Below, piece by piece: positions 31,204 through 48,665 of a DNA stretch of 64,000 nucleotides. The position numbers and the translations under genes were made by a program. Below the pieces are notes generated by a model, which was given only the letters and a program-made list of their open reading frames with translations, was not told the DNA's origin and did no database searches. Where the stretch lies: contig NZ_CP020814.1 of assembly GCF_002109385.1 (NCBI RefSeq), forward strand, positions 3,991,501-4,055,500. Direction: 5' to 3'. Source of the DNA: Halalkalibacter krulwichiae (GTDB lineage Bacteria; Bacillota; Bacilli; Bacillales; Bacillaceae_D). Each line of letters begins with the position of its first letter. Position 1 is the first letter of the stretch.

Positions 31204-32340
31204 TCATTCATTTGTAAACTGATCAATGATTAACGAGAGATACAGCTCAAATAAATCATTGTATCTCCGCGGGTCCTTTCCGGTAATTTCTTTTATTTTT
31301 TCTAAACGATACTGGAGCGAATTACGGTGGATAAATAACGCATTAGCCGTATTGCTCGCTTTGCCATCCTCCTTAATGTACGCTTCAAGCGTCCGCTTTA
31401 GATCACCAAGTTCATCTTCCTTCTTTAACTTATTCATAATCTCGATAAAAGGATTGTCTCGTGAATGGGCAAGTTCATGAATAAAAACATAGACTGAAAA
31501 CTCATCATACGACAACAATAGCTGCTCGACTTTAAGCTTCTCACCGACAACAAGTGTATCCTTCGCTTCTTTATATGATAGATGAAGTTGATCAAAATTG
31601 GGATAAAAGCGCCCGATTGCGACTTTGACAGACGAATCAATTTTGTGTAGCTGATTGAGCCAAATCCGAACAGCACTTAACGTACGCTCTTGGTCCCAAT
31701 GCCCGTCTTTTACATGCACTCTTTTTAAAAGGACGATCTCGCCTGTATAGGTCGTAACCATCAAGTCATCCTGCTCTTTCATCTCAAGCAGCTTCTGTTC
31801 GAGCTTTTGGTTGCGGTCGACTTTCGGCAAACGGCTTTTTAACACCATAACGACCCGCGGCACCGTTAGATTAATCTGCAGCGAACGAGCGCGCTCATAC
31901 ACGAGTCCATCATTTAGTGGCAAGCCATTAATGAGCTGATGTACGAGCTCTTCTTTAATTCGTTCATCGAGCTGTAACTGCTTTTGCAAAAATGCCTGCT
32001 CCAAAATCATTTCCGTCGTCATCTTTACAAGCTGACCATACCCCCGCGTTTCCTTAAGATCACCAGTAATTCCGACGACGCCCACAACTTCCCCTTGAAA
32101 GACGATTGGCAAATTTATTCCTTCTTTGACCCCGTCCCAGTTCAACGTATGATCACGGTCAATTTCAATTGGTTCACCTGTCTGCAAAACTCGTACCGCG
32201 ACCTCATGCTTCGTTGCAATCCGGCCACGATCGCCTGAACCAATGATCCGCCCCTCTTGGTCCATGACATTAATGTTATAAGGAAGAATTGCCATCGTAC
32301 GGTCGACAATCTCCTGCGCGATTTGTTCTGTAATGTACAT
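31204..32340 (-). CDS. cdaR: CdaR family (sugar-diacid/glycerate) transcriptional regulator
   Basis: 378 residues. N-terminal sugar-diacid recognition domain (MYITEQIAQEIVDRTMAILPYNINVMDQEGRIIGSGDRGRIATKHEVA, GEVVGVVGITG), a GGDEF-like middle and a C-terminal PucR-type helix-turn-helix (LKRTLEAYIKEDGKASNTANALFIHRNSLQYRLEKIKEITGKDPR). Activates garate/glycerate genes in relatives. Same strand and 127 nt upstream of the permease, with its own terminator between. Confidence 0.9.
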   Translation of the reverse strand: MYITEQIAQEIVDRTMAILPYNINVMDQEGRIIGSGDRGRIATKHEVAVRVLQTGEPIEIDRDHTLNWDGVKEGINLPIVFQGEVVGVVGITGDLKETRGYGQLVKMTTEMILEQAFLQKQLQLDERIKEELVHQLINGLPLNDGLVYERARSLQINLTVPRVVMVLKSRLPKVDRNQKLEQKLLEMKEQDDLMVTTYTGEIVLLKRVHVKDGHWDQERTLSAVRIWLNQLHKIDSSVKVAIGRFYPNFDQLHLSYKEAKDTLVVGEKLKVEQLLLSYDEFSVYVFIHELAHSRDNPFIEIMNKLKKEDELGDLKRTLEAYIKEDGKASNTANALFIHRNSLQYRLEKIKEITGKDPRRYNDLFELYLSLIIDQFTNE

Positions 32341-34684: not shown

Positions 34685-34723
34685 GAAACGATTGCTTCTT
34701 CCAAACAGAAGCAATCGTTTTTC
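34685..34723 (+). terminator. Rho-independent terminator
   Basis: AAACGATTGCTTCT / AGAAGCAATCGTTT stem with a small loop and T5, 18 nt after the small membrane gene. Confidence 0.88.
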
Positions 34724-34755
34724 TATGTTACACTAAATCAAAAAAGGTGCACTCT

Positions 34756-35142
34756 ATGAAACTAAACAAAATCCACCACATCGCCATCATATGCTCAGAC
34801 TACGAAAAGTCAAAACACTTTTACACCGATTCACTCGGGCTGACTGTCATTAAAGAGACGTATCGTAAAGAAAGAGATTCATACAAACTCGATCTCGCCA
34901 TTAACGATGACTACCAAATCGAGCTGTTCTCCTTCCCAAACAGCCCGGAACGACCAAGCTATCCGGAAGCACGAGGTCTTAGACACATCGCTTTTGAAGT
35001 AACGGACATCGAAGAAGCTGTGAGAGAACTTGAAGCAAAAGGCGTTGCCGCAGAACCGATTCGCGTCGACGAGATCACCGGCAAAAAGTTCACCTTCTTC
35101 CCCGATCCGGATGAGTTACCGATTGAATTTTACGAAAAGTAA
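34756..35142 (+). CDS. VOC family protein (glyoxalase-like, YwkD/GloA2 type)
   Basis: 128 residues from the ATG at 34756 (AAAAGGTG upstream). One full VOC domain made of two beta-alpha-beta-beta-beta modules. Metal-ligand candidates are His6/7 in IHHIAIICSDYEKSKHFY, the Glu in YQIELFSFP, the His in GLRHIAFEV and the Glu in LPIEFYEK. Closest to Bacillus YwkD and the streptococcal SMU1112c group, lactoylglutathione-lyase-like proteins of unsettled substrate. Single gene flanked by terminators. Confidence 0.87.
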   Translation: MKLNKIHHIAIICSDYEKSKHFYTDSLGLTVIKETYRKERDSYKLDLAINDDYQIELFSFPNSPERPSYPEARGLRHIAFEVTDIEEAVRELEAKGVAAEPIRVDEITGKKFTFFPDPDELPIEFYEK

Positions 35143-35187
35143 AAAGATCGAGTGATCACCGAGCAAGGTGATCATTCGATCTTTTTT
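35141..35187. terminator. Bidirectional rho-independent terminator
   Basis: AAAAAGATCGA.TGATCACC / GGTGATCA.TCGATCTTTTT long stem with a six-base loop, between the VOC gene and the convergent AGCS symporter gene. Confidence 0.9.
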
Positions 35188-35192
35188 CTTTC

Positions 35193-36661
35193 TTACTTCA
35201 CCTTCTCGACCTTCGAAGGCTCATCCTTTTTATCGTCATAAAAAACTTTAAAATTCGGATCGACCGTGCCGATTCCTAAGTGACGCGCATTGAAATCCTT
35301 CAACAGTGAGATAAACTTCGGAGCTAAGATCAACAGCGCTAAGATGTTAGCAAAAATCGGCAGTGCTGTTGTCATATCGGCTAATAACCACACAGCCGTA
35401 CCTGGCATTCCTAACGAAACAGCTATTAATACAAGGAGAAATCCCGGAATTGGATAGGTCCATTTGTAAAAAGTAAGAACCCTCTCCTTGTACTTTCCCT
35501 CTCCCAACAAATACCGGAGAATGACTTCAATTTGCGCATAAATCCCTGAAGAGGTCGTGAGCCCAAATAAGAGAATACCGACGACTAGGATCACCCTTCC
35601 AATCATGCCGAGTTCTGTTTCAAATGCACTTAATGTAAGCGATGCACCATCTAGCCCCGAGGACCAAGCACCGGTCACAATAATAACCAATGACGTGATC
35701 GAACAAATGATGAACGTATCTACGAATACTTCAAATACGCCTAGAAGTCCCTGACGAACCGGATGATCGGTTTTCGCTGACGCATGAATCATCGGTGAAG
35801 AACCCCAACCTGCTTCGTTGCTAAACACAGCACGTGACATTCCGACTTTAATGGCCTGAGCGACCGCTGCCCCGGCGAAGCCGCCGACTGCACTCGTTCC
35901 GTTAAAGGCACTGTCAAAAATCAGCGCAAACGCAGCAGGAAGGAGCGGGAAGTTTACAAGCAGAATGTAAAGGCCACCAAGCAAATAAAAAAGAATCATA
36001 AAAGGCACGATTTTTTTCGCTATTTTTCCTAACCCAGCTAGCCCTCCGCTAATGAAAATGTAAAGCAAATTAAGTATACGAAACTGACAAGCACTTGGTT
36101 AATTTGAAAGGTTGAAGAAACGGCTTCTGATACCGTGTAATTTTGAATCGTTAAGAAAAAAACTGTCCCAAAACCTAAAATAAAAATAAAGTTCAACACT
36201 TTGTATAGTTTTTTGCTTTTTCGTTCTTCATGGAGGCCCTTTTTAATGTAATAGGTGGGACCACCATATGTTTCACCATTTTTGTCTGTAGAACGATAAT
36301 GAACCGCTAGTGTAACTTCAGCCATCTTGATAATTTTTCCAAATAACCCCGCGACCCACATCCAAAACACTGCTCCCGGTCCACCAAAAGCGATCGCTGT
36401 TGCGACACCCCCAATATTCCCAACTCCAACCGTCGCTCCAATCGAAAGACTAACACTTTCAAGTGGTGAAAGGACACCATCTTGGTTGTCTTTATTTTTC
36501 GCGCGAAACAGCCGATCGAAACTGTCTTTTAAAATATAAGGGAGCTTGATCACTTGAAAGAATTTCGTTCGAATCGAATAATAAATACCGACGGCTAAAA
36601 TCGTAAATATTAGCGGCATTCCCCACAAAAATTCCCATACGATAAGCTCAATCATTTCCAA
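35193..36661 (-). pseudogene. AGCS family sodium:alanine/glycine symporter, frameshifted
   Basis: Two overlapping frames together encode one normal-length AGCS carrier. The N-terminal frame (from 36661) has VSLSIGATVGVGNIGGVATAIAFGGPGAVFWMWVAGLFG and GETYGGPTYYI. The C-terminal frame has SGGLAGLGKIAKKIVPFMILFYLLGGLY, MSRAVFSNEAGWGSSPMIHASAKT and the usual DMTTALPIFANILALL end. The frame is lost after INQVLVSFVYLICFTF; adding one base to the A4 run at 36055-36058 (T4 on the coding strand) gives ...FTFFISGGLAG. The gene is last in the arginine-type cluster, after the RocB-like gene. Probably a sequencing error, otherwise a recent inactivation. Confidence 0.85.
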
Positions 36662-36691
36662 CCTAATCCCCTCCCTCGTTCTTCACAAAGC

Positions 36692-38305
36692 TTAAGCTGA
36701 CACAACCTGAAACAGGCTTTTTACCAAGCTCTCAAGCATGACCGGTGTTTGAATAAAAGCACTCTCTATATGAAGACGCTCGGTTTTCTTGTGGGCATCT
36801 TTTCCAAATGGACCGACATTGAGTACCGGTGCTTGTAGCTCTTGCATTGCTTCAAATGGAATGCTATAGCAACTGCCCCAAACCGGAGTGTTTCGTTCAA
36901 ACACTTCCCAATCTTGTGTTGTGCCTTGGTAGTTCACATAGCTTAAATCACAGATTCCGTTAAAATAATGAATTTGGTTCATTTCAATCTGATGTGTATC
37001 AGCTACTTTTTGCAGCAATGTGACAGACTTCTTGATGTGAGGATCGGTGGAGGAATTGACTGCAGGATAGTAAGGTGGTGCAAACAACAGGATGATAGCA
37101 GGAGCTAATTCCTGGCATTGAGTCATTAATTTATCTGCTAACCGTATCGATTTTTCACGTTCATCCCATTGAATATTGGCCTCAACTTCATTTTTCAAGT
37201 TCGCAATAAAGGCTTCTCCATACTTTTTCTCAGCATGGACGAGGAGTTCTTCATACTTCAGGACTTTTACCGAACCGACTCCTTGCATATGCTCGCGCTT
37301 GCAAAGCTCGGAATAAGCTTTGTTACAATGGTTTGCCGCTTCGTTTGCGACTTGTTCAAACACATTCATAATATCAGCAGCACTGCGTTTCATTAGAAAA
37401 ACGTTATACAAAGCGGCAGCCCTGTACGGAGTTTGTGCTGAATACTGCAATTGTAAATCTTTCTGCTGCAATGTCACTGGTAGCGGTGTCGCTTCGCCAA
37501 GATCTATTTCACGAAATGCCTCATTCCACTCCATTAACTGAGTCATGTAGGAGGCTATATAGTTTGCAGTTATTCCCGATAATGATTCGCCAACATGGGT
37601 TTCCTTGCCATAAAACAATGCTGCAGGCATGATTTTCCCCATCGTTCCCGTGTAAATATATCGCTTTTCGTCACCCGGCTTTTGTGAAAAGGACGGCTCG
37701 CTATTTAAAAACAGTACGTATGAAAGGTCAAAGGTCTCTTTCATTTTGACCAATTCTTTAACACACACCCGCATTCCTGCTGAGCTTACTTCCTCATCGG
37801 GAACTGTTGCAAGCAACAGGTTGATTGGCCAATTTTCAACTGTCGCTTTTTCCAATAATGCCATATGAAGGGCAAGGCCCATCTTCATATCCATTGTTCC
37901 TCTGCCAAATAGATACTGACCCGATTCAAGGTCGGTGCGTGCATCCAGAGGTAGCTCGTTTTTACGACTGTGCAGTCGTGCAGTCAGCTTTTCCGGTTGG
38001 CATGCATACGGCTCTAAGTCCCCATATTCCTCCGTTTGCACCGTATCAAAATGACTGATTAACACAATGGTCTCTTTCGCCTCTTGATGCTTATATAGGG
38101 CGGTGACGACGTTTCTACCTGAGCCAGCATCGTGTAACGTGAGATACTGCGGGTGTTGATTAAAGTATTCGAGCTCCCTAAGTTTTTCTTCAACTTTATA
38201 GGCAAAAGCACATTCGCCTTCTGTGAACGTCCGACTTTCCCAACTCACAAGCTCACACAACAAAGTCCTGAGCTGATCAGGAGTCGCCCATTTTAACTGT
38301 TCCAT
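36692..38305 (-). CDS. rocB: M20 family peptidase, RocB-like
   Basis: 537 residues from the ATG at 38305 (AAAGGAGATG upstream; an ATG at 38353 has none). Metal-site motifs of M20/ArgE-type hydrolases: LISHFDTVQTEEYG, LFGRGTMDMKMGLALHMALL and TVPDEEVSSAGM. It is longer than DapE/ArgE enzymes and matches the RocB group, linked to arginine use but without a proven reaction. Neighbours are a DDAH-type gene upstream and the AGCS symporter downstream. Confidence 0.85.
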   Translation of the reverse strand: MEQLKWATPDQLRTLLCELVSWESRTFTEGECAFAYKVEEKLRELEYFNQHPQYLTLHDAGSGRNVVTALYKHQEAKETIVLISHFDTVQTEEYGDLEPYACQPEKLTARLHSRKNELPLDARTDLESGQYLFGRGTMDMKMGLALHMALLEKATVENWPINLLLATVPDEEVSSAGMRVCVKELVKMKETFDLSYVLFLNSEPSFSQKPGDEKRYIYTGTMGKIMPAALFYGKETHVGESLSGITANYIASYMTQLMEWNEAFREIDLGEATPLPVTLQQKDLQLQYSAQTPYRAAALYNVFLMKRSAADIMNVFEQVANEAANHCNKAYSELCKREHMQGVGSVKVLKYEELLVHAEKKYGEAFIANLKNEVEANIQWDEREKSIRLADKLMTQCQELAPAIILLFAPPYYPAVNSSTDPHIKKSVTLLQKVADTHQIEMNQIHYFNGICDLSYVNYQGTTQDWEVFERNTPVWGSCYSIPFEAMQELQAPVLNVGPFGKDAHKKTERLHIESAFIQTPVMLESLVKSLFQVVSA

Positions 38306-38394
38306 AGAACATCTCCTTTCTACATCACCCGTATTATTCAATATCAGCAGCAATCGGTCCGACTTTGCTCGTCAGACCGTGCCACATTCTACTA

Positions 38395-39162
38395 CTAAAA
38401 ACGTAAAGACAAGCAACTTAACCCACCATCTTGTTTTTGGAACTCTGACATTTCAAGCTCAATCGTTTCGTAACCCGCTTCGTTAATTTTACGATTTGTT
38501 TCTTCATAGCCCTTTGGAATGATTACGTAGTCATTCACAAGAATACAGTTCGCTGAATACTCATCCGAATCTGACACGACAATTTTGTCATAGTGCTCAA
38601 AATCTGGATGATCAACAAACTCACCAGCTACGACAATGAGGTTATTCTGTAAATATGCGATCCCTGTTTTCAAATGGAAAAACTCTTTTAATGGAACGAT
38701 TGTCGCCTGATACGAATTCGCTTCAAGAATGTCTTTCAACTGCTTAGCTCCTGCTTCATTTGTTCGTTCCGATATTCCAATGTAAAAATGATCATCCACT
38801 TGGAGAACATCTCCACCATCTAGTGTGCCTGGAGCGTTGATATAATGGAACGTATTGTAAAATGATTTAAGCGTTTGTTCAATCTCAACAATTTCTCCAT
38901 TCCTTGAATCAGCACCTGGATTGGTAATAACCGCAAATTCAGGAGTCAGCACTGCTGCATCCTCAACAAAACAAGAGTCTGGAAATTCCTCACTCGCTTC
39001 AAGTTCTGTTACACTAACGCCACAAGTTTTCAGTGCCTCGATGTAAGCCGCATGCTGCTTGAGCAAAAGATCATAATCTGCCTTTCCTAGATTAGAAGTC
39101 GTTAAACCATTGACATAGCTCTTTCCTGGCTTCTTCACAATCACATTTTTAAACATGTTCAT
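38395..39162 (-). CDS. ddaH: Dimethylarginine dimethylaminohydrolase (DDAH)-type enzyme
   Basis: 255 residues, guanidino-modifying enzyme superfamily. Catalytic Cys250 is five residues from the end in GGLSCLSLRF, His163 is in FFHLKTGIAYL, Asp115 in GTLDGGDVL and acidic residues in SEEFPDSCFVEDAAV. These positions are within one residue of the catalytic Cys249/His162 of Pseudomonas DDAH as I recall it, and the TLDGGDV block is also found in mammalian DDAH. Expected reaction: N-methylated arginine to citrulline plus methylamine or dimethylamine. 14 nt after the partner guanidino enzyme. Confidence 0.86.
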   Translation of the reverse strand: MNMFKNVIVKKPGKSYVNGLTTSNLGKADYDLLLKQHAAYIEALKTCGVSVTELEASEEFPDSCFVEDAAVLTPEFAVITNPGADSRNGEIVEIEQTLKSFYNTFHYINAPGTLDGGDVLQVDDHFYIGISERTNEAGAKQLKDILEANSYQATIVPLKEFFHLKTGIAYLQNNLIVVAGEFVDHPDFEHYDKIVVSDSDEYSANCILVNDYVIIPKGYEETNRKINEAGYETIELEMSEFQKQDGGLSCLSLRF

Positions 39163-39176
39163 TCCCCCTATTAACT

Positions 39177-40055
39177 TTAATTATTTATTCGAACAACAGG
39201 ACATGTTAAACAAGTCGGGCCACCTGTTCCTTTATAACTAATCTCTTCACCTTTATACTCAAAGACCGTTGCACCAGCATCAACAAGCTGCTGTTTTATA
39301 AGCGGATTGCCTGCCACAACAAGACAAATACGCGGAGCTAGTGCAAGTACATTACTGCCTAAGCGCTCATACTCTTCTTTTGTTACTTCAAGTAGCCGGA
39401 AACCCCGTTCGATTAAAAGATTTCTGAAAAACACTGGCATGAGTGGAGAATAGACAACGGCTAGGTCATGGTCAACGATGCTGATTAACGACATTAGATG
39501 CAAGCACTCTTCAACGCCTCTGTCATGTGGCAATTGAACAACGATAAACTCGTCGACATAAGGAGCAGTCATTTCTTTTAACTGCTGGATCGCCTCCGCG
39601 TTCGTTCGATACCCAAGACCGACAGCAAGAGTGCGATCATCAAGCCAAACCAGATCACCGCCATCAGCGACTGCATCCCCTTGAAGTTCACCGATAATAG
39701 GAATGCCGCGTTCGATTAAAAACTCCCTATACACCTCAACCTCAGGCTGTCTTGCTTTTTTCCCTGATTTTAAAAGAATCGCACCTGCATGTGTAAATTT
39801 AACTGGATCATGTGCATATAAAGAATCAAGTCCGACGGATGACGATTGCGGCAAAAATTCAACGTGTGGAACATGTTGTTCAAGGATGTGAAGAAAGTTG
39901 TGATATTCAGATATCGCTTCCTCTAAATTCGGCTCTTCCACATAATTAAACACCTTCCACTGCTTTGATAAATGCTCTTGACTGATAAATGCCTGCTTTG
40001 GATGTTTAACAATTACATGCTGCATTGGTTGAAACATTGATGAACAATATGACAT
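39177..40055 (-). CDS. Arginine deiminase/amidinotransferase-like guanidino-modifying enzyme
   Basis: 292 residues from the ATG at 40055 (GGAGGGGAGAAG upstream). A second member of the same superfamily with its own active-site pattern: SLYAHDPVKFT, GDAVADGGDLVWLDD, His in VEECLHLMSLISIVD, and nucleophile Cys in GGPTCLTCPVVR. The GG.TC...CP end is that of arginine deiminase/DDAH-like hydrolases and amidinotransferases. Which guanidino compound it uses is unknown. First gene of the operon behind a two-palindrome promoter (40073-40161). Confidence 0.8.
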   Translation of the reverse strand: MSYCSSMFQPMQHVIVKHPKQAFISQEHLSKQWKVFNYVEEPNLEEAISEYHNFLHILEQHVPHVEFLPQSSSVGLDSLYAHDPVKFTHAGAILLKSGKKARQPEVEVYREFLIERGIPIIGELQGDAVADGGDLVWLDDRTLAVGLGYRTNAEAIQQLKEMTAPYVDEFIVVQLPHDRGVEECLHLMSLISIVDHDLAVVYSPLMPVFFRNLLIERGFRLLEVTKEEYERLGSNVLALAPRICLVVAGNPLIKQQLVDAGATVFEYKGEEISYKGTGGPTCLTCPVVRINN

Positions 40056-40072
40056 CTTCTCCCCTCCTAACA

Positions 40073-40161
40073 TTTCCGTTCAACGGAAACCTATTCCATT
40101 AATCGGAAAACTTAACCTCACTATATAAAACCCTTCACTCCCTTGTCAATAATATTCTGAA
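40073..40161 (-). promoter_or_regulatory. Promoter with paired IclR-type operators and upstream conserved box
   Basis: On the minus strand: TTGACA (complement 40144-40149), 18-bp spacer, TATAGT (complement 40120-40125). Just downstream lie TTCCATTAATCGGAA (40094-40108) and the perfect 8-1-8 palindrome TTTCCGTTCAACGGAAA (40073-40089), centres 20 bp apart. Plus-strand TGTCAATAATATTCTGAA (40144-40161) covers the -35 and recurs with one change at 43145-43162. Confidence 0.75.
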
Positions 40162-40186
40162 ATTTTAAATAAAAATAAAATCGAAT

Positions 40187-40213
40187 GAAAAAAGCAAGCC
40201 ATCACAGCTTGCT
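40187..40213 (-). terminator. Terminator of the YfcC/M20 operon
   Basis: On the minus strand AGCAAGC / GCTTGCT stem, seven-base loop, then T6; 15 nt past the amidohydrolase stop. Confidence 0.8.
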
Positions 40214-40227
40214 CTTCTTGCTCGTCT

Positions 40228-41403
40228 TTACTTGCTAGCCAATTGTTCGGCAAGGCCTACAAAATATTTCACCCCATAGATTAAACTATCTTCATCAACA
40301 CGAAACTTAGGGTGGTGCAAAGGATAGGCATCGCCCCATTGCGGGTTGTGAACACCGATAAATTGCATCGAAGAAGGGACACGCACAGAAAAAGCAGAAA
40401 AGTCCTCTGTCCCAAACATCGGCTCCTCAATCTCCACGACATGTTCTTTCCCAAAATGGGCTTCTCCAACCTCACGGGAAAACGCAACAGCTTGATGATC
40501 GTTAACGATCGCCGGATAGCCATATTCCCAACTGATTTCATAGCTCGCCCCGTGTGCAGCCGTTATCCCTGCAACAATTTGCTCGAGCAACTCTCTTGCC
40601 TTTACACGCGATTCTTCATTTAACGATCGGATCGTTCCTCCAAGCTCTGCTGTATCGGCAATCACATTCAAAGCAGAACCACATTGAAACTTTGTAACAG
40701 AAACTACCGGAGCTTTTAAGACAGAGATTTTTCGCGCGACGATTTGTTGCAAATTCGTCGTAATTTCAGCCCCTATCATCAACGGATCTATCGTTAATTC
40801 TGGTGTAGACGCATGTCCTCCACTCCCGATTATCTTAATCTCAAAATCATCCGCCGCTGCACAAAATGCCCCTTCACGAATGCAGATAGTCCCCTTTTCA
40901 TAATAAGGACTGACATGTAACGCAAAGGCATAGTCAACGCCATCAATGATCCCTTTTTCCACTAGTTCACTTGCTCCACCAGGGAAAGCCTCTTCAGCAT
41001 GTTGGAAGACAAAGCGAATTTCTCCACTAAGATCCTCCTTTTTTGCAGCAAGCACTTTCGCAGCCCCTAATAACATCGCAGTATGAGCATCATGCCCACA
41101 TGCATGCATAACTCCTTTGTTTTTAGATCGGTATTCAATCTCGGCTTCTTCTTCAATTGGCAAAGCATCCATATCAGCCCGAAACGCAATCGTTAAGTTT
41201 GAGCCTGTCTTCCTCATTCCTTTTAAAACAGCAACCACACTCGTTTCAGTTGGTCTACTCACTTCTAGCCCTGACATCTGAATCAATTGTTGGTAAATAA
41301 AATCCGACGTCTCCTTCTCCTGATAAGACAGCTCTGGGTGTTGATGCAAATGTCTTCTCCATGATAAGACTTCCTTCTCGATTTCTACTAATGTCGTATT
41401 CAA
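40228..41403 (-). CDS. M20 family amidohydrolase (N-acyl amino acid/hippurate hydrolase type)
   Basis: 391 residues. Family blocks: WRRHLHQHPELSYQEKETSDFI, FRADMDALPIEEE, GVMHACGHDAHTAMLLGAAKVL, FVFQHAEEAFPGGASELVE, GGHASTPELTIDP and MFGTEDFSAFSVRVPS. Cys-Gly-His-Asp and the distal His supply the metal ligands. Expected to cut an amide bond of an N-acyl amino acid. Its pairing with the YfcC transporter under an IclR operator suggests the imported substrate is an N-acylated amino acid, perhaps of the arginine family. Confidence 0.88.
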   Translation of the reverse strand: MNTTLVEIEKEVLSWRRHLHQHPELSYQEKETSDFIYQQLIQMSGLEVSRPTETSVVAVLKGMRKTGSNLTIAFRADMDALPIEEEAEIEYRSKNKGVMHACGHDAHTAMLLGAAKVLAAKKEDLSGEIRFVFQHAEEAFPGGASELVEKGIIDGVDYAFALHVSPYYEKGTICIREGAFCAAADDFEIKIIGSGGHASTPELTIDPLMIGAEITTNLQQIVARKISVLKAPVVSVTKFQCGSALNVIADTAELGGTIRSLNEESRVKARELLEQIVAGITAAHGASYEISWEYGYPAIVNDHQAVAFSREVGEAHFGKEHVVEIEEPMFGTEDFSAFSVRVPSSMQFIGVHNPQWGDAYPLHHPKFRVDEDSLIYGVKYFVGLAEQLASK

Positions 41404-41428
41404 TACATACGCCTCCTACCTTTAATCA

Positions 41429-42856
41429 TTAGAAAGGTCCATACGAAATGCTTTGAGCAATAATTAAAAAGATAATCGCAACCGCAACTTGAATCAAAAA
41501 GTACGGCATGACCCACTTAAACCACTTTGTGAAAGGAATGCCAACAATCGCTAAGCCCGCTAGTAAAACACCTGATGTCGGAATCACCATATTTGACAAC
41601 CCATCACCTAACTGGAAAGCCAGAACCGCAGTCTGCCTAGTCACTCCTACTAAATCCGCAAGTGGCGTCATAAGTGGCATTGTCAAAGCAGCCTGCCCAC
41701 TCCCAGAAGGAACGATGAAGTTTAGAAATAATTGAACAATGAACATTCCAACCGCATTAAACGTCGGAGGAAGTTGACCAACTATGGCTGCTGAATAATA
41801 TAAAATTGTGTCAAGCAATCCCCCATTTGAAATCACGACTAGAATCGTTTGGGCGAAGCCAATAATTAACGCGCCTGCAACCATTTCTCTCGTTCCAGAA
41901 ATGAAACTATCTGCGATTTTATTAGGAGATAAGCGTCCAATTAATGCCATAATGATACTCGCAAATAAGAACAAACCAGCAATCTCGCTAATGTACCAAC
42001 CTAACTGAATTACACCATAAACTAAGACGAGAAAGTTCACGAGTAAGATAAGCAACTGCAGGCGATGTCTTCCACTTATTTTAAAATCTTTATCAACGAC
42101 AAGCTCCGTTTGACGCTCAAATTTTCCATACAAGCCTAATTCGGGATTTTTCCTTACTTTTACAGCATGAAAATATATATATAGTACAGTCACAATGAAG
42201 AAGACGGCGAACATCGCAATCCGTAAACCCATTCCTGAATACACAGGCAGTTCTGCGATCGTTTGCGCGACCCCGACATTAAATGGGTTCGTAATTCCTG
42301 CAACAAATCCAGTCGCAAGCGTTCCTAACATGACAATTGCAAAACCAGTAATCGCATCAAAACGCAAAGCAATCGTCATTGGTACAATGATCGCAATATA
42401 GACGAGTGTATCTTCAGCCGATCCAATTAATGCTCCTAAAGAAGCAAACACAAGCACCATAATCGGAATCAAAATCTTCTCGCGATTGCCAAAACGGTAG
42501 GCAACAAATTTAATAAATGAATCGAGCGCTCCAGTGGCTTGCATAATCCCAAGTGCTCCTCCAAACAAGAAGACAAATAATATAATTGATGCTCCATCAA
42601 TCATCCCTAAATGAAAACTATTGAACATATCCATTAAACCGACTGGACTCGACTCAACAAACTGAAACGACTCAGGATCGACAACACTTCGACCATCGAC
42701 TTCCGTCCTCTCAAATTGCCCTGCAGGAACAAGGTACGTTAAGATTGTCGCAGCAACAATAACAAAAAACATTAAAGCAAATGGATTAATTCCCTTGTTA
42801 ATTGGTGATTCAAGCTTTGGCTCAGCTCTCATTTCGTTCTTTGGTAAATTACTCAT
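41429..42856 (-). CDS. YfcC family basic amino acid/organic anion transporter
   Basis: About 475 residues, about 12 membrane helices. I prefer the second of two adjacent ATG codons (42856), six bases from AGGGGGAAT. YfcC/DcuC-type motifs are FALMFFVIVAATILTYLVPAGQFER, FVFLFGGALGIMQATGALD, GSAEDTLVYIAIIVPMTIAL, GFVAGITNPFNVGVAQTIAELPVYSG and LNFIVPSGSGQAALTMPLMTPLADLVGVTRQTAVLAFQLGDG. Relatives sit with arginine deiminase genes. Divergent from iclR at 43222, with the operator pair between. Confidence 0.87.
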   Translation of the reverse strand: MSNLPKNEMRAEPKLESPINKGINPFALMFFVIVAATILTYLVPAGQFERTEVDGRSVVDPESFQFVESSPVGLMDMFNSFHLGMIDGASIILFVFLFGGALGIMQATGALDSFIKFVAYRFGNREKILIPIMVLVFASLGALIGSAEDTLVYIAIIVPMTIALRFDAITGFAIVMLGTLATGFVAGITNPFNVGVAQTIAELPVYSGMGLRIAMFAVFFIVTVLYIYFHAVKVRKNPELGLYGKFERQTELVVDKDFKISGRHRLQLLILLVNFLVLVYGVIQLGWYISEIAGLFLFASIIMALIGRLSPNKIADSFISGTREMVAGALIIGFAQTILVVISNGGLLDTILYYSAAIVGQLPPTFNAVGMFIVQLFLNFIVPSGSGQAALTMPLMTPLADLVGVTRQTAVLAFQLGDGLSNMVIPTSGVLLAGLAIVGIPFTKWFKWVMPYFLIQVAVAIIFLIIAQSISYGPF

Positions 42857-43076
42857 CATATTCCCCCTATGATTAAAGTCACCCTTTTTCAGAATAAACA
42901 GAAAACTAAATCCATTCCTCTCCACTTTCCATGCTTTTCTCTCTAGGAACGGTTTATCAAAAAGGCATCATAAAACTAGGGAGCTTTCTACTTGTCGAGT
43001 TTGATGACTTTTCTGCCGTTCAAATTGGCTGAACAAACTCAAGTACTTTAGACGAATTTAAAAACACCTCCAATCT

Positions 43077-43162
43077 TTCCGTTGAACGGAATTAATTTTC
43101 GATATTCGGAACTTAATTCCATCATAAAGAAATTCATGTTATAATGTCAATAATATTCAGAA
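43077..43162 (-). promoter_or_regulatory. Second copy of the paired-operator promoter (YfcC side, shared with iclR)
   Basis: On the minus strand TTGACA (complement 43145-43150), 17-bp spacer, TTATGA (complement 43122-43127), then TTTCGATATTCGGAA (43097-43111, imperfect) and the perfect palindrome TTCCGTTGAACGGAA (43077-43091), centres 20 bp apart. TGTCAATAATATTCAGAA (43145-43162) repeats the box at 40144. A plus-strand TATAAT at 43140-43145 may serve iclR itself, so the regulator could control its own gene. Confidence 0.75.
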
Positions 43163-43221
43163 TATTTACTAGCAAATAATCTCCCCTTATGGAGGTTGTG
43201 AAAGATAGGTGATCTAACTCC

Positions 43222-43956
43222 ATGCAAGGTATCGATAGAGCAATGAGTGTGATAAATGTCCTTCGGGTCCATCCTGATAAGTCTCTTTCCATTTCTGAAT
43301 TAGCCAAGCAGTGCGAGCTCCCACTTAGCACGATGCACCGCTTACTCTCCTCTCTATTGGAGCACGGACTAATTCAACAAGAAGAAGAAACAAAGAAATA
43401 CCACCTCGGCTATTTATGGCTTGAACTCGGATTGCAAATGTACGATACAATCGACTACGTAAGCAAAATCAGACCAGAGCTTGAAGCCCTCATGCAAAAG
43501 GTCGAAGAGAATGTCTATTTAAGCAAACCGATGCAAACCGACTCTCTCATCATTGAACGGATCGACAGCTTATCCAATAACATTCGCGTTTACGACCAAA
43601 TCGGCTTACGAATCCCCCTACATATCGGAGCATCCAACAAAGTGATGGTCGCTCATTTTCCAGAGGAAAAAGCGACAGAGATCATTCACGAACTCGTGCC
43701 CGAAGAAGAACAAGCCGCTTTTAGAGAGCAATTAACAGAAATCAAACAACAAGGCTACGCCGTCAGTCACGGTGAACGAACAGAAGGAACCTCCTCTGTC
43801 GCGGCTCCCATCTTTAATCATTTTGGCGAAATTCATGGCGCAGTAAGCATCGGTTTTGTGAATTATCATTTAACCGATAGGCGGCTTGATGAGCTCCTTT
43901 CTGCAATTATTGAAAGTGGGCGGAAGATTTCGTTGTTGTTGGGGTATAAAGGGTAA
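43222..43956 (+). CDS. IclR family transcriptional regulator of the guanidino/N-acyl amino acid cluster
   Basis: 244 residues. Winged helix SLSISELAKQCELPLSTMHRLLSSLLEHGLIQQ and effector domain ENVYLSKPMQTDSLIIERID, GLRIPLHIGASNKVMVAHFP, GYAVSHGERTEGTSSVAAPIF. It is divergent from the YfcC-M20 operon. The TTCCGTTNAACGGAA palindromes occur only at its own promoter region and at the amidinohydrolase operon promoter, so it is the likely repressor of both. Confidence 0.9.
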   Translation: MQGIDRAMSVINVLRVHPDKSLSISELAKQCELPLSTMHRLLSSLLEHGLIQQEEETKKYHLGYLWLELGLQMYDTIDYVSKIRPELEALMQKVEENVYLSKPMQTDSLIIERIDSLSNNIRVYDQIGLRIPLHIGASNKVMVAHFPEEKATEIIHELVPEEEQAAFREQLTEIKQQGYAVSHGERTEGTSSVAAPIFNHFGEIHGAVSIGFVNYHLTDRRLDELLSAIIESGRKISLLLGYKG

Positions 43957-43958
43957 AC

Positions 43959-44010
43959 AAAAGCCAGCTGTTTTAGTGTTTATGAGCGCACTGGAACAGC
44001 TGGCTTTTTC
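43959..44010. terminator. Bidirectional rho-independent terminator
   Basis: AAAAGCCAGCTGTT / AACAGCTGGCTTTT stem with a longer loop and T5C on the plus strand, between iclR and the convergent endonuclease gene. Confidence 0.85.
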
Positions 44011-44038: not shown

Positions 44039-44947
44039 TCATCCCTTTGCAATCTTCTGCACATCCTTCACAATCCTCACACGATCCTCCACACGATAAT
44101 ACCTCACACAATTTTCATCTTCAGGGGAAAGACCCGCACTTTGAAAAACCCCAACAAATCGATAGCGATTAAATCCGAGATTGTCCTTGTATTTCGCAAA
44201 TACCGCTCTTTTTCGATTCAAGTTCATTTCTTCAAGGTGGTTTGCTTTTCTCTGTTCTACGATTGTTTCATCCTGATGGGATTCGTCAATATAGGACCAA
44301 TCCTCTGCCAAATAATTAAGCCAACCGTTAGCTACAGATTTCGTATTTCCATCGACAATGATAGACAACTTTGGGCACCACAACCACGTATGATCCAGCA
44401 CCCGAAACCAACTGCGTTGATAGCTCTTTGCATTCTTGCCAAATACCGTATTGACAATGTCTTTAATGTCCTTAAAAGACACTTCATCATGAATCGATAA
44501 ATAGTCTTGTTGTTTTATTTCATCGAGCTCTTCCTCATATGTGAGCCACCTTAAAGGCGTTTTTACTTCCTTCTCTTGTATAATCGACACGACTTCGTTA
44601 ATGCGGTGATGGATTTCGTCAATCGTTCTAGTTGCATCAATACGAAGACAGACAAAGTCGTCAATCGACTCTTCATTAACAGCTGAAATAATGTCATCCA
44701 TTCGAAGGTTGTCTGCTTCTTGATTTCCCAAATGATAGGCTTCATCGACCTCTATTCCAATATGTAACTGTGGAAAATATAAATCCATTAACGCATGGCT
44801 ACCATTTTTTCGTTTCACGTATTGCTGACTCACCGGCTTTATATTCACATTGTCTATCTTATGCCAAATGGCCGTTAAAATATAATTCTCGTAATCTTTT
44901 CTTTTCGTTCTTGAGAATGTTTTTACTAGATAATCACATTTATTCAT
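44039..44947 (-). CDS. AbaSI/PvuRts1I-like modification-dependent restriction endonuclease
   Basis: 302 residues. Starts MNKCDYLVKTFSRTKRKDYENYILTAIWH and carries a Vsr-like nuclease core (ALMDLYFPQLHIGIEVDEAYH, with Asp and Glu-Val-Asp-Glu residues, and LRIDATRT). The C half (about 155-302: QRSWFRVLDHTWLWCPKLSI ... NRYRFVGVFQ ... CVRYYRVEDRVRIV) fits an SRA-like reader domain. Such enzymes cut DNA holding 5-hydroxymethylcytosine or its glucosylated form, a defence against T-even-type phages. No methyltransferase lies nearby, as expected for a type IV enzyme. Assignment comes from remembered family pattern. Confidence 0.75.
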   Translation of the reverse strand: MNKCDYLVKTFSRTKRKDYENYILTAIWHKIDNVNIKPVSQQYVKRKNGSHALMDLYFPQLHIGIEVDEAYHLGNQEADNLRMDDIISAVNEESIDDFVCLRIDATRTIDEIHHRINEVVSIIQEKEVKTPLRWLTYEEELDEIKQQDYLSIHDEVSFKDIKDIVNTVFGKNAKSYQRSWFRVLDHTWLWCPKLSIIVDGNTKSVANGWLNYLAEDWSYIDESHQDETIVEQRKANHLEEMNLNRKRAVFAKYKDNLGFNRYRFVGVFQSAGLSPEDENCVRYYRVEDRVRIVKDVQKIAKG

Positions 44948-45446: not shown

Positions 45447-46337
45447 CTATTCACCTATCTCACTTACCGTCCGAATCTCCTCAATCAGCTCAACCACAGC
45501 TGGTGGCAGCATTCGAACGTTTGAAAAAGCTACGTACACCGGTCTTTGAAGGTGTTTAGAACGTATTCTGCGTGTGATTAGGTTTGGGTTCGCGTTGTAG
45601 CGAGTATAGCTTTCTGGCAGGATCGAGATGCCAAGGTCTTGTTCGATTAAGCTACATGCCGTTTCGAAGCGTTCGTACTCAAACATGATCGATGGTTTCA
45701 GCTCTTCTTTCGCAAATGCTTCAAGTATGTTTTCTCTTGTTTGAAAGCCTTTTGTGCTAATGATGAATTCTTCGTTGATCATGTCGCTTAATGAGACCTT
45801 GGGTTGTTTGGCAAGTCTGTGATCTTTATGAACGACTAACACGAATTCTTCGACATATAATTCCGATACGCTGATCTCATCCGATTCAATCGGTTGATTC
45901 GTAATGGTCAGGTGGACATCATAGTTTTCGATCGCTTGGATGACATTTTCATGGCCGAGTGTTTCCTTTAAATCTAAGCAAATGTCAGGGTATTTCTCTT
46001 TGAATGTTTTAATCCTTCCTAGCAACCAAAACTTTGATGATTCAATAAATCCAATCGATATCGTTCCTCTTCCTACTTGCTTAATTTCATGTAATTCCTT
46101 TGCCATGTTGTCGTATTTCTTCATTAATTCTTGCGCCTTCGTGTAGAAGGCTTGTCCCGATTCTGTGATCGAAAAGCTTCTTGTGTTTCTTTCTAGCAGT
46201 TGAAACCCGACTTCTTTTTCCAGCTTTTTAATGGCGTTGCTTAAAGAAGGCTGCGAGATATGAAGGGCCTCTGCCGCTTTTGAGAAATGCTTTAAGTTTA
46301 CAACGGTAATAAAATAACGAAGCTGCCGGAGATCCAT
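45447..46337 (-). CDS. LysR family transcriptional regulator
   Basis: 296 residues. Helix-turn-helix MDLRQLRYFITVVNLKHFSKAAEALHISQPSLSNAIKKLEKEVGFQLLERN, then a periplasmic-binding-like effector domain. GGAGGGG precedes the ATG. Divergent from hutG-gltS, so it probably activates that operon in response to a histidine- or glutamate-related ligand. Confidence 0.9.
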   Translation of the reverse strand: MDLRQLRYFITVVNLKHFSKAAEALHISQPSLSNAIKKLEKEVGFQLLERNTRSFSITESGQAFYTKAQELMKKYDNMAKELHEIKQVGRGTISIGFIESSKFWLLGRIKTFKEKYPDICLDLKETLGHENVIQAIENYDVHLTITNQPIESDEISVSELYVEEFVLVVHKDHRLAKQPKVSLSDMINEEFIISTKGFQTRENILEAFAKEELKPSIMFEYERFETACSLIEQDLGISILPESYTRYNANPNLITRRIRSKHLQRPVYVAFSNVRMLPPAVVELIEEIRTVSEIGE

Positions 46338-46355
46338 TTTTCCCCTCCTTCATTT

Positions 46356-46370
46356 ATAGTTTTAAACTAT
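46356..46370. promoter_or_regulatory. Perfect palindrome between lysR and hutG
   Basis: ATAGTTTTAAACTAT has arms of seven around one base, 20 bp upstream of the lysR start in the divergent promoter region. Its T-N11-A form fits a LysR-type box. Confidence 0.5.
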
Positions 46371-46466
46371 TATTTTATATTTTTTTGATATTGGTAATTA
46401 TATATCGACTCCATTATACTTTTCAATAATCACAAATAATCAGAATTTTAAGAGGAGGGCGAACCA

Positions 46467-47444
46467 ATGTATGTAAAACCGACTCAAGACTATTGGCACG
46501 GAAGAATCGATGATCCAACAGATCGTAGGAGTTTTCGCTTTCATCAAATGATTAAGCTAGCCAACCTTGATCAACTGATAGAAAAAGGAAAGACTGACCG
46601 CAAAGCATTCGCATTCCTTGGCTTTCAATGTGATGAGGGTGTAAGAAGAAACAAAGGGCGTACCGGCGCGAAACAAGGACCGATTGCAATTCGAAAGGCA
46701 CTATCATCCCTGCCTTGGCATTTCGATGAACAGACAGATGTCTTTGATGTTGGCGATGTCGTTTGTGAAAAGAAAGAGATGGAACAAGCGCAAGCCGAGT
46801 TAGGAGATGCGGTTCATACTCTATTGAGAAACAACGTACAACCGATGATTCTTGGCGGAGGCCATGAAACATTGTACGGTCACTATCTCGGTGTTCGTAA
46901 AACACTTGGGCCATCAGCCAAGCTTGGAATCATTAATATTGATGCACATTTTGATATGCGTTCATACGATGTCGAAACATCCTCTGGAACCATGTTTAAG
47001 CAAATTCTTGACCATGATGACAAATGCGGCTACTTCTGTGTGGGCATCCAAAAGCTCGGCAATACCGCTTTGTTATTTGATTTAGCTGACGAGCACCACG
47101 TTCAGTATGTCTATGATGAAGAAGTAAATGATAATGAGATCACCACTACTTTCAAGAAGCTTGATGCCTTTATCGACCGCTATGATCAAATCCTTCTGAC
47201 TTTATGTACCGATTCGATCAATTCAGCGTTTGCACCTGGAGTAAGTGCACCAACGCCTTTTGGCTTAGAACCCAAAACCGTCCGTCAACTACTCCGTCAT
47301 ATTCAGTCACACGAAAAAACGAAATCCTTCGATCTATGTGAAGTCAATCCATCTCTAGATGAACACAACAAGACCGCTAAACTTGCGGCCCAGTTCATAG
47401 CTGATACAATGATGCACGTAGAACAGCGGGAAAAACAATACTAA
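46467..47444 (+). CDS. hutG: Formimidoylglutamase
   Basis: 325 residues of the ureohydrolase (arginase) family. Mn-site motifs GGGHETLYGHY, NIDAHFDMRSYD and LCTDSINSAFAPGVSAP, with the Ser-Ile-Asn replacing the Asp-x-Asp of arginase as in many HutG. Converts N-formimidoyl-L-glutamate to glutamate plus formamide, the last step of histidine breakdown. No hutH, hutU or hutI is in the window. 15 nt upstream of gltS. Confidence 0.88.
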   Translation: MYVKPTQDYWHGRIDDPTDRRSFRFHQMIKLANLDQLIEKGKTDRKAFAFLGFQCDEGVRRNKGRTGAKQGPIAIRKALSSLPWHFDEQTDVFDVGDVVCEKKEMEQAQAELGDAVHTLLRNNVQPMILGGGHETLYGHYLGVRKTLGPSAKLGIINIDAHFDMRSYDVETSSGTMFKQILDHDDKCGYFCVGIQKLGNTALLFDLADEHHVQYVYDEEVNDNEITTTFKKLDAFIDRYDQILLTLCTDSINSAFAPGVSAPTPFGLEPKTVRQLLRHIQSHEKTKSFDLCEVNPSLDEHNKTAKLAAQFIADTMMHVEQREKQY

Positions 47445-47459
47445 CAGGAGGTATGTTCC

Positions 47460-48665
47460 ATGAGCATTGAATTGAATCAGATTACTACTTTATTTTTAGC
47501 CGTTATACTTCTTTTAATTGGAAGCGTTCTCGTAAAAAGAGTTCAATTCCTTAGCCGCTTCTGCATCCCGGCTCCTGTCGTTGGAGGATTGCTTTTTGCT
47601 CTTATTATCGTTTTAGTTAGACAGACAGGAATCACGATTACGATGGACACGTCCCTTCAAGGGTTATTCATGCTTACGTTCTTTACAACAGTTGGTCTTG
47701 GTGCCAGCTTTAAGCTCGTGAAGCTTGGAGGTAAGCTGCTACTCATTTACTGGATCGCTTGTGGATTTTTAGCTTTATTCCAAAGTGTAATTGGGATCTC
47801 ACTTGCTAGTGTATTCGGGTTAGATCCATTGTTAGGGGTTATGTTTGGAGCGGTATCGATGGAAGGTGGCCACGGAGCTGCTACAGCTTTCGGTGGAACA
47901 ATTGAAGAACTCGGCATTGAATCAGCCTTGTCGATTGGTCTTGCTGCAGCGACATTTGGATTAATAGCCGGTGGATTAGTCGGTGGTCCAACGGTGAAGT
48001 ACTTAATTACGAAACACAAATTGAAAGCTACTGAACCGAAACAAGAAAATGAGATTGCCGCAACAAGTGAACATGTACAGGACTCTTCATCAATGAAGCT
48101 TAACTCGCAAACATTTATGGTCCAAATTTTAATTATCACATTTTGTATGGCTATAGGATCTTATTTAGGCGAATTATTCTCAACGGCAACAGGATTCGTC
48201 CTTCCGAATTACGTTGGAGCGATGTTTGTAGCGGTTATTACCCGAAACGTCATCGACCACTTCAACAAAAACACCGTCGATATGAAGAGCATCTCCTTTA
48301 TCGGCGACGTGACACTCGGACTATTCCTGTCAATGGCTTTAATGAGCATCAAACTATGGGAAGTTACAGCGCTTGCGCTTCCGATGTTCGTCATCGTATT
48401 CGTTCAAGTAGTCTTCGTTGTCCTTCTAGGCATCTTCGTCTTATTTAGATTATTCGGTAAAGACTATGACGCTGCCGTTATGGTCGGAGGCTTTGCAGGT
48501 CACGGACTCGGCGCAACGCCTAATGCAATGGCCAACATGTCAGCGATCACAGAAAAATACGGCCCTTCTCGAAAAGCCTTTTTAATCGTCCCAATCGTAG
48601 GTGCCTTTCTTATTGATGTATTTGCGATGCCAATTATTATTACGAGCATTAATTTATTGCAGTAA
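47460..48665 (+). CDS. gltS: Sodium/glutamate symporter GltS
   Basis: 401 residues, ten or more membrane helices in two inverted repeats. GltS marks: FLSRFCIPAPVVGGLLFAL, FFTTVGLGASFKLVKLGGK, MEGGHGAATAFGGTIEELG and GGFAGHGLGATPNAMANM. Moves glutamate with sodium. Co-operonic with hutG, whose product is glutamate, so it may import glutamate or release the excess. AGGAGG site upstream. Confidence 0.92.
   Translation: MSIELNQITTLFLAVILLLIGSVLVKRVQFLSRFCIPAPVVGGLLFALIIVLVRQTGITITMDTSLQGLFMLTFFTTVGLGASFKLVKLGGKLLLIYWIACGFLALFQSVIGISLASVFGLDPLLGVMFGAVSMEGGHGAATAFGGTIEELGIESALSIGLAAATFGLIAGGLVGGPTVKYLITKHKLKATEPKQENEIAATSEHVQDSSSMKLNSQTFMVQILIITFCMAIGSYLGELFSTATGFVLPNYVGAMFVAVITRNVIDHFNKNTVDMKSISFIGDVTLGLFLSMALMSIKLWEVTALALPMFVIVFVQVVFVVLLGIFVLFRLFGKDYDAAVMVGGFAGHGLGATPNAMANMSAITEKYGPSRKAFLIVPIVGAFLIDVFAMPIIITSINLLQ

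Follow-up and report, generated by a model that had tools for sequence, protein, structure and literature searches.

The locus reported here resembles several described systems. The methylarginine system of Pseudomonas aeruginosa has one hydrolase and a regulator of another type, and AbgT/AbgAB-type systems pair a carrier with an M20 hydrolase. The roc regulon of B. subtilis (RocB, RocC/E, RocD and RocF) is not known to contain a dimethylarginine dimethylaminohydrolase (DDAH) or the arginine deiminase (ADI)-like enzyme that we call ADIL. Regarding substrates, DDAH-1 converts asymmetric dimethylarginine (ADMA) and monomethylarginine (NMMA), but not symmetric dimethylarginine (SDMA), as stated in the accessible part of a review (PMC6273216).

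The window, i.e. the whole stretch of 64,000 nt that we analysed, comes from Halalkalibacter krulwichiae (NZ_CP020814.1, 3,991,501 to 4,055,500 of the forward strand; feature coordinates below are window positions). All genes named in the first-pass annotation were found, encoding an AGCS symporter, a RocB-type M20 hydrolase, DDAH, ADIL, an M20 amidohydrolase, a YfcC/DcuC-family carrier and a divergent IclR-family regulator. The cluster is one regulated unit of real genes. By sequence it divides into the operons YfcC-M20 and ADIL-DDAH-RocB-AGCS, both of which have their own promoter-like site and tandem operator. A terminator-like hairpin (40188..40218, minus strand; one of 14 hairpins in the stretch versus a shuffle mean of 8.1) separates the two, and a 20-pair terminator-like hairpin lies at the end of the ADIL operon (35141..35186, printed on the plus strand). 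GC content does not mark the cluster out (0.42 versus 0.41). From the gene set, its operators, its conservation and the separate clade formed by ADIL we infer, with a probability of roughly 0.6, that the locus is an inducible regulon through which N-omega-modified arginine, methylarginines being the likeliest candidates, would be catabolized; all substrates and reactions are predicted. The earlier proposal of a modified-arginine system would stand, by comparison, for the dedicated gene set, for DDAH as a source of citrulline and for RocB acting on a later product, but not for its view that both guanidino enzymes are of the DDAH type.

The IclR gene (43222..43956, plus strand; PF01614/PF09339) is divergent from both operons. 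The YfcC operon is preceded by the promoter-like site TTGACA-18-TATGAT (43121..43150, minus strand, 11/12 match), one of the two best among 26 matches in 34700-44000 (shuffle mean 17.3), and the ADIL operon by TTGACA-18-TATAGT (40120..40149, minus strand, 11/12 match). Downstream of the -10 of the former lie two TTCCN7GGAA palindromes 20 bp apart (43077..43111, 0 and 1 mismatch), with a third, weaker copy extending to 43131, and between the -10 of the latter and the ADIL start lie two exact palindromes, also 20 bp apart (40074..40108). When up to 2 mismatches were allowed, such tandems occurred genome-wide at 40074-40108 and 43077-43111 only. Tandem TTCCN7GGAA operators were also present in 72 of 73 IclR-ADIL intergenic regions, for which 100 plain letter shuffles served as control. 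The single palindrome TTCCGN5CGGAA with at most 1 mismatch was not enriched genome-wide (77 sites versus 103 for the reversed pattern). Exact single-palindrome sites elsewhere in the genome are located at 1043970 and 3738515. Judging from the layout, IclR would bind the tandem operators just 3' of the -10 of the two promoters and repress them until an inducer appears. The operator could also serve as a ready-made sensor for this inducer. The accessible part of a paper on IclR regulons (PMC8222616) does not mention arginine.

Neighbourhoods of ADIL were compared in the best 80 of 132 relatives. Among these, DDAH and a RocB-type M20 gene lie within 8 kb of ADIL at 77 and 71 loci, respectively, while IclR is found nearby at 78 and an APC permease at 76. 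In a sample of 249 genomes from the order, 4 had DDAH, and 3 of these were also the only ones with ADIL (hypergeometric P 1.6e-6). That DDAH is rare in bacilli, as initially remarked, is borne out by this sample (4/249) but not by the named ADIL loci, 77/80 of which carry it, many of them from Lysinibacillus, Sporosarcina, Psychrobacillus and Peribacillus. For a different class of the same phylum, 17 of 249 genomes carry ADIL; GntR lies near 14 of these, DDAH near 12, AGCS near 11 and a RocB-like gene near 10, several contigs ending nearby. One of these loci (L173) reads DDAH-YfcC-M20-ADIL-RocB. Sought in other genomes, the gene set stays together in two classes and with two different regulators, with genes missing at some loci. 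Among the papers listed by literature searches, none dealt with this gene set.

DDAH (38395..39162, minus strand, 255 aa) matches the structure 3rhy with an E value of 1.5e-80, and the 12 DDAH rows of our tree, including Pseudomonas DDAH, fall on one side with 100/100 support. The protein carries L20, D62, E67, D68, R87, D115, R133, H163, K165 and C250 at the catalytic and substrate positions known from the Pseudomonas enzyme. Across 78 bacillar orthologues, Pseudomonas L18, D60, E65, D66, R85, R132, H162, K164 and C249 are kept in 77-78, E114 is replaced by Asp in 76, as in human DDAH-1, L161 is replaced by Phe in all 78, and I243 is variable. On the basis of these conserved residues, we infer that DDAH would hydrolyse ADMA and NMMA to citrulline and (di)methylamine. 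It is quite unlikely that the DDAH label misleads and that the locus serves another N-omega-modified arginine, such as N-hydroxyarginine, a glycation adduct or a plant or microbial guanidino amino acid. The 320.4 bits of DDAH, below the 450-bit cut-off of NCBIfam NF045658, and the Phe in place of L161 would fit this idea, as would the ADIL clade described below, which has no member among the matches to solved structures and whose His82 and Met188 differ from both known relatives. On the other hand, the catalytic and most substrate residues are unchanged not only in the 78 bacillar but also in 12 distant orthologues, save Leu18, Leu161 and partly Lys164, which argues against it.

ADIL (39177..40055, minus strand, 292 aa; the ORF opens at 40073) has its catalytic set intact. 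By sequence it groups with neither DDAH nor arginine deiminase and constitutes a clade of its own within the guanidino-modifying superfamily. The clade was supported by 98/98 in a final tree from which four of eight PF19420 rows had been removed (very long branches, thought to reflect wrongly chosen reading frames). ADIL keeps Cys282, His186, Asp/Glu131 and Asp83 as well as the head-group positions D77, R102 and R150. It lacks the DDAH Glu and Lys: His82 (14/15 ADIL rows) stands where DDAH has Glu, before the substrate Asp, and Met188 (15/15 rows) where DDAH mostly has Lys and all 6 ADI rows have Asp. With these differences and its own clade, ADIL does not bear out its earlier assignment to the DDAH type. 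The alternative that ADIL and DDAH duplicate a single activity was considered and rejected, since they form separate clades and are kept together in 77/80 loci. Because the DDAH positions that presumably hold the free amino-acid head (D60, R85 and R132) are kept in ADIL, an alpha-N-acylated arginine is an unlikely substrate for ADIL itself.

Another reading is that the locus conducts ordinary arginine breakdown, with ADIL as a short arginine deiminase and DDAH as a helper or drifted relative, turning arginine into citrulline and ornithine. We regard this as unlikely. ADIL is shorter than the six ADI rows by 106-154 residues and reaches 61 bits versus the 489-bit cut-off of the arcA model. Its invariant Met188 replaces the Asp at ADI residue 280, which we take to be important and whose D280A mutant is, by title, structure 2abr; moreover, the ADI Asn corresponds to Asp77 in ADIL, and most of the DDAH residue set is retained.

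Genomic context points in the same direction. In G279, the only genome with ADIL among 3 in its order sample, the gene order is argG-ADIL-NhaC-type transporter-argH, and this single context suggests citrulline as the ADIL product. As such citrulline could return to arginine, a futile cycle would arise in this one genome if plain arginine were the ADIL substrate. That ADIL is instead a citrulline ureidase acting downstream of DDAH, with RocB in another role, is highly improbable. The superfamily members CtlX and ArgZ do take arginine/citrulline on to ornithine, and ArgZ/AgrE is among the fold matches of ADIL, but citrulline destruction between argG and argH would oppose the operon, and RocB is a frequent partner (71/80 loci).

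The RocB-type M20 hydrolase (36692..38308, minus strand; PF01546; the ORF opens at 38353) has residues of M20 ligand type that are retained in 70-72 of 72 sequences and 10/10 distant relatives. Its assignment follows the names of homologues: 8 of the best 120, at 66-69% identity, bear the source name 'arginine utilization protein RocB', and the other named ones are mostly M20/M25/M40 only. No RocB model was among its NCBIfam matches, and no solved structure matched significantly. Homologues with 60-61% identity lie among roc-type genes at three loci (L116-L118, neighbours named by eye). As B. subtilis RocB is termed a probable citrullinase in the accessible part of a review (PMC4813224), the putative reaction would split citrulline into ornithine, CO2 and ammonia, whereupon RocD, encoded in the host genome with a score above cut-off, would channel ornithine towards glutamate. 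For RocB, a protein of unsure function, the locus provides a recurrent neighbour that would generate the substrate proposed for it.

For uptake, most bacillar loci would rely on an APC permease, those of the other class on AGCS and the window on YfcC. The YfcC/DcuC-family carrier (41429..42859, minus strand; PF03606, 325 bits; ORF from 42925, with 42859 the likely start) scores above the DcuC family cut-off and, at 339 bits, below the 500-bit cut-off of the YfcC basic amino acid antiporter equivalog. Its partner is an aminoacylase-like M20 amidohydrolase (40228..41403, minus strand; TIGR01891, 379 bits, above cut-off; closest solved chain YxeP). The pair is present in 12/80 ADIL loci, the same 12 for both genes; YfcC/M20 genes of lower similarity (41-45%), located on the opposite strand in L046, L047 and L049, are left out of this count. 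Within 300 bases upstream of YfcC, 11 of these 12 loci have no operator and one has a single site with one mismatch, so YfcC there would need a longer operon. A chance neighbourhood of YfcC-M20 was considered and rejected in view of the operator common to both operons in the window and the identical 12 loci. Where the pair occurs, the M20 enzyme would probably act first and cleave an N-acyl or peptide-like conjugate to release the amino acid, a possible and optional step.

The AGCS symporter gene is present, as first annotated, but not as a single intact reading frame. It reads as broken by a frameshift in the assembly, with two overlapping frames (36661-36038 and 36068-35193) encoding the N-terminal part (36038..36661, minus strand; TIGR00835 positions 1-177) and the C-terminal part (35193..36068, minus strand; positions 177-424), the latter 59% identical to the AGCS adjoining ADIL/DDAH in L141. 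Its being a chance neighbour was considered and rejected: at 45% identity or more, AGCS lies near ADIL in 0/80 bacillar loci but in 11/17 loci of the other class. An APC permease encoded elsewhere in the host genome was also considered and discarded, the best match being only 28%.

Beside DDAH, ADIL would convert to citrulline a second modified arginine that DDAH refuses, for which SDMA is our best guess, thereby supplying an activity that DDAH lacks. We offer tentatively, and hold as doubtful, the further idea that ADIL is the first family specific for SDMA (or a like N-omega,N'-omega-substituted arginine) and that, joined by DDAH and by RocB as the citrullinase, it would complete a bacterial route for all methylarginines from eukaryotic proteins. 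The analysis defines a recurrent module and a distinct enzyme clade, a second enzyme type beside the known DDAH.

Compared with known systems, the locus shares with P. aeruginosa a DDAH of the same family (3rhy, 1h70) with most residues in common, but has two hydrolases, RocB, and IclR or GntR. ArcA and ADIL have in common the fold and the catalytic Cys-His-acid, although ADIL is shorter, has no Asp at position 188, branches as a separate clade and remains below the arcA cut-off. In the mycobacterial rocE-rocD-Rv2323c cluster a DDAH-like gene adjoins roc-type genes, as here, whereas the accessible part of its description names no ADIL-, RocB- or IclR-type gene and gives plain arginine as the tested substrate (PMC4569260). 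The likeness to the B. subtilis roc regulon lies in the RocB-type enzyme and the ornithine end point, but the regulator is IclR with tandem operators rather than RocR, and the proposed route to ornithine would pass through citrulline rather than arginase. Finally, a carrier and an M20 amidohydrolase are encoded together as in AbgT/AbgAB-type pairs, and the L173 carrier also matches AbgT (31 bits), yet here the pair belongs to an arginine-type locus and lies under its IclR operator.

We found the genes that the first-pass annotation had grouped under an IclR regulator to be present, recurrent in relatives and regulated, but the AGCS symporter that it had listed among them is split. On the minus strand, the window (bases 3991501-4055500 of a single-contig, 4.61-Mb genome) encodes a YfcC carrier (41429-42859, open reading frame from 42925), an M20 amidohydrolase (40228-41403), an ADI-like enzyme for which we coined the short name ADIL (39177-40055), a DDAH (38395-39162), a RocB-type M20 enzyme (36692-38308, open reading frame from 38353) and AGCS as two overlapping frames (36661-36038 and 36068-35193), with the IclR gene (43222-43956) divergent from them. 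Because the AGCS protein of L141, a locus from another class of the same phylum, aligns successively to both frames (59% and 48% identity), the symporter gene carries a frameshift in this assembly. Directly adjoining the IclR gene, 44039-44947 (minus strand) encodes a PvuRts1I-like endonuclease with an SRA domain (PF21598, PF18491), by family a predicted modified-cytosine-dependent restriction enzyme, and a CdaR-like sugar-diacid regulator (Diacid_rec plus PucR-type HTH) lies at 31204-32340 (minus strand).

Between 34700 and 44000 (9.3 kb) there are 26 promoter-like sites, versus a shuffle mean of 17.3; the top two, each matching at 11 of 12 positions, lie on the minus strand ahead of YfcC and of ADIL. 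Immediately downstream of the -10 element, both promoters carry the palindrome TTCCN7GGAA in two copies spaced by 20 bp; the position relative to the -10 suggests that these putative IclR operators act by repression. Among the 73 of 80 relatives with an excisable IclR-ADIL intergenic region, 72 contain the palindrome two or more times when up to one mismatch per copy is allowed (letter shuffles, 0.05). All three exact palindromes in the window fall at the YfcC and ADIL promoters, and tandem operators with up to two mismatches occur only there in the whole genome, such that YfcC-M20 and ADIL-DDAH-RocB-AGCS look like one regulon of two operons. With three mismatches allowed, the genome holds 29 tandem sites versus 31 for the reversed pattern, and the lone palindrome, when one mismatch is tolerated, shows no enrichment genome-wide (77 versus 103). 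Single exact palindromes lie outside the cluster at C1:1043970 and C1:3738515 (same contig). The exact operator is absent from 45447-48665, which encodes a LysR regulator, an arginase-family protein and a GltS glutamate symporter.

The first-pass annotation had also proposed looking for the gene set in other genomes, and the grouping indeed recurs, both in bacilli and in a second class. Of the 132 loci recovered by scanning with an ADIL alignment, we retained the best 80 for study; in these, genes within 8 kb of ADIL encode IclR (78/80), DDAH (77/80), an APC permease (76/80), RocB (71/80) and YfcC (12/80, the same 12 having M20), AGCS being found in none, and the most frequent order is IclR / ADIL-DDAH-APC-RocB (41/80). 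In 249 genomes of the order, picked independently of ADIL, the RocB family occurs in 199, DDAH in four and ADIL in three, all of them among the four (P 1.6e-6). The fourth, G236, has a DDAH (60%; L131:2085-2849) with no ADIL or RocB in the fetched 12 kb. Some ADIL match occurs in 49 genomes of a 60-genome sample that included 12 from the window's genus and 23 from its family, the best outside the window's genome being only 36% identical; the set was therefore probably acquired, of which GC content of the cluster gives no sign.

ADIL occurs in 7 of 398 genomes of the phylum sample and in 17 of 249 from the order of G300, one of these seven, which belongs to the second class (same phylum as the window's genome, different class). 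Neighbours of these 17, counts limited by some contigs ending close by, are GntR (14), DDAH (12), AGCS (11), RocB-like (10) and YfcC (2); the first four occur together in five loci (L141, L176, L177, L178 and L180), and L173 reads GntR / DDAH-YfcC-M20-ADIL-RocB. The different regulator and a RocB part only 31% identical argue that the grouping is maintained for function.

ArgG consumes citrulline. Since one genome, G279, carries ADIL in an argG-ADIL-NhaC-type transporter-argH context, ADIL would most simply form citrulline from a substrate other than arginine. An additional PF19420 guanidino-enzyme gene of the window's genome, outside the window (C1:2336574-2337383, L192), falls in a separate group. 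Similarity of the M20 amidohydrolase to enzymes hydrolysing N-acyl amino acids is consistent with its cleaving off some acyl group once YfcC has imported the substrate. For the relatives' APC permease the top model is S-methylmethionine permease, scoring below cut-off.

The name RocB is borrowed, being carried by 8 of the best 120 homologues, most remaining named ones being M20/M25/M40 hydrolases only. A review assigns B. subtilis RocB a probable citrullinase function (PMC4813224), and its frequent adjacency to a putative citrulline-forming enzyme type fits such a role. Homologues 60-61% identical lie among roc-type genes, named by eye, at three loci (L116-L118), and the window's genome encodes an ornithine aminotransferase (551 bits). 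Counting against a single role, a 63% identical homologue (L114:6276-8509) has a four-base overlap with a gene for arylformamidase (TIGR03035, 276 bits, above cut-off), which hints that RocB-family enzymes may also serve tryptophan breakdown.

The gene system stands as real, regulated and recurrent. Among the papers listed by our literature searches, none deals with the ADIL clade or the full gene set; the protein families of its parts are already known.
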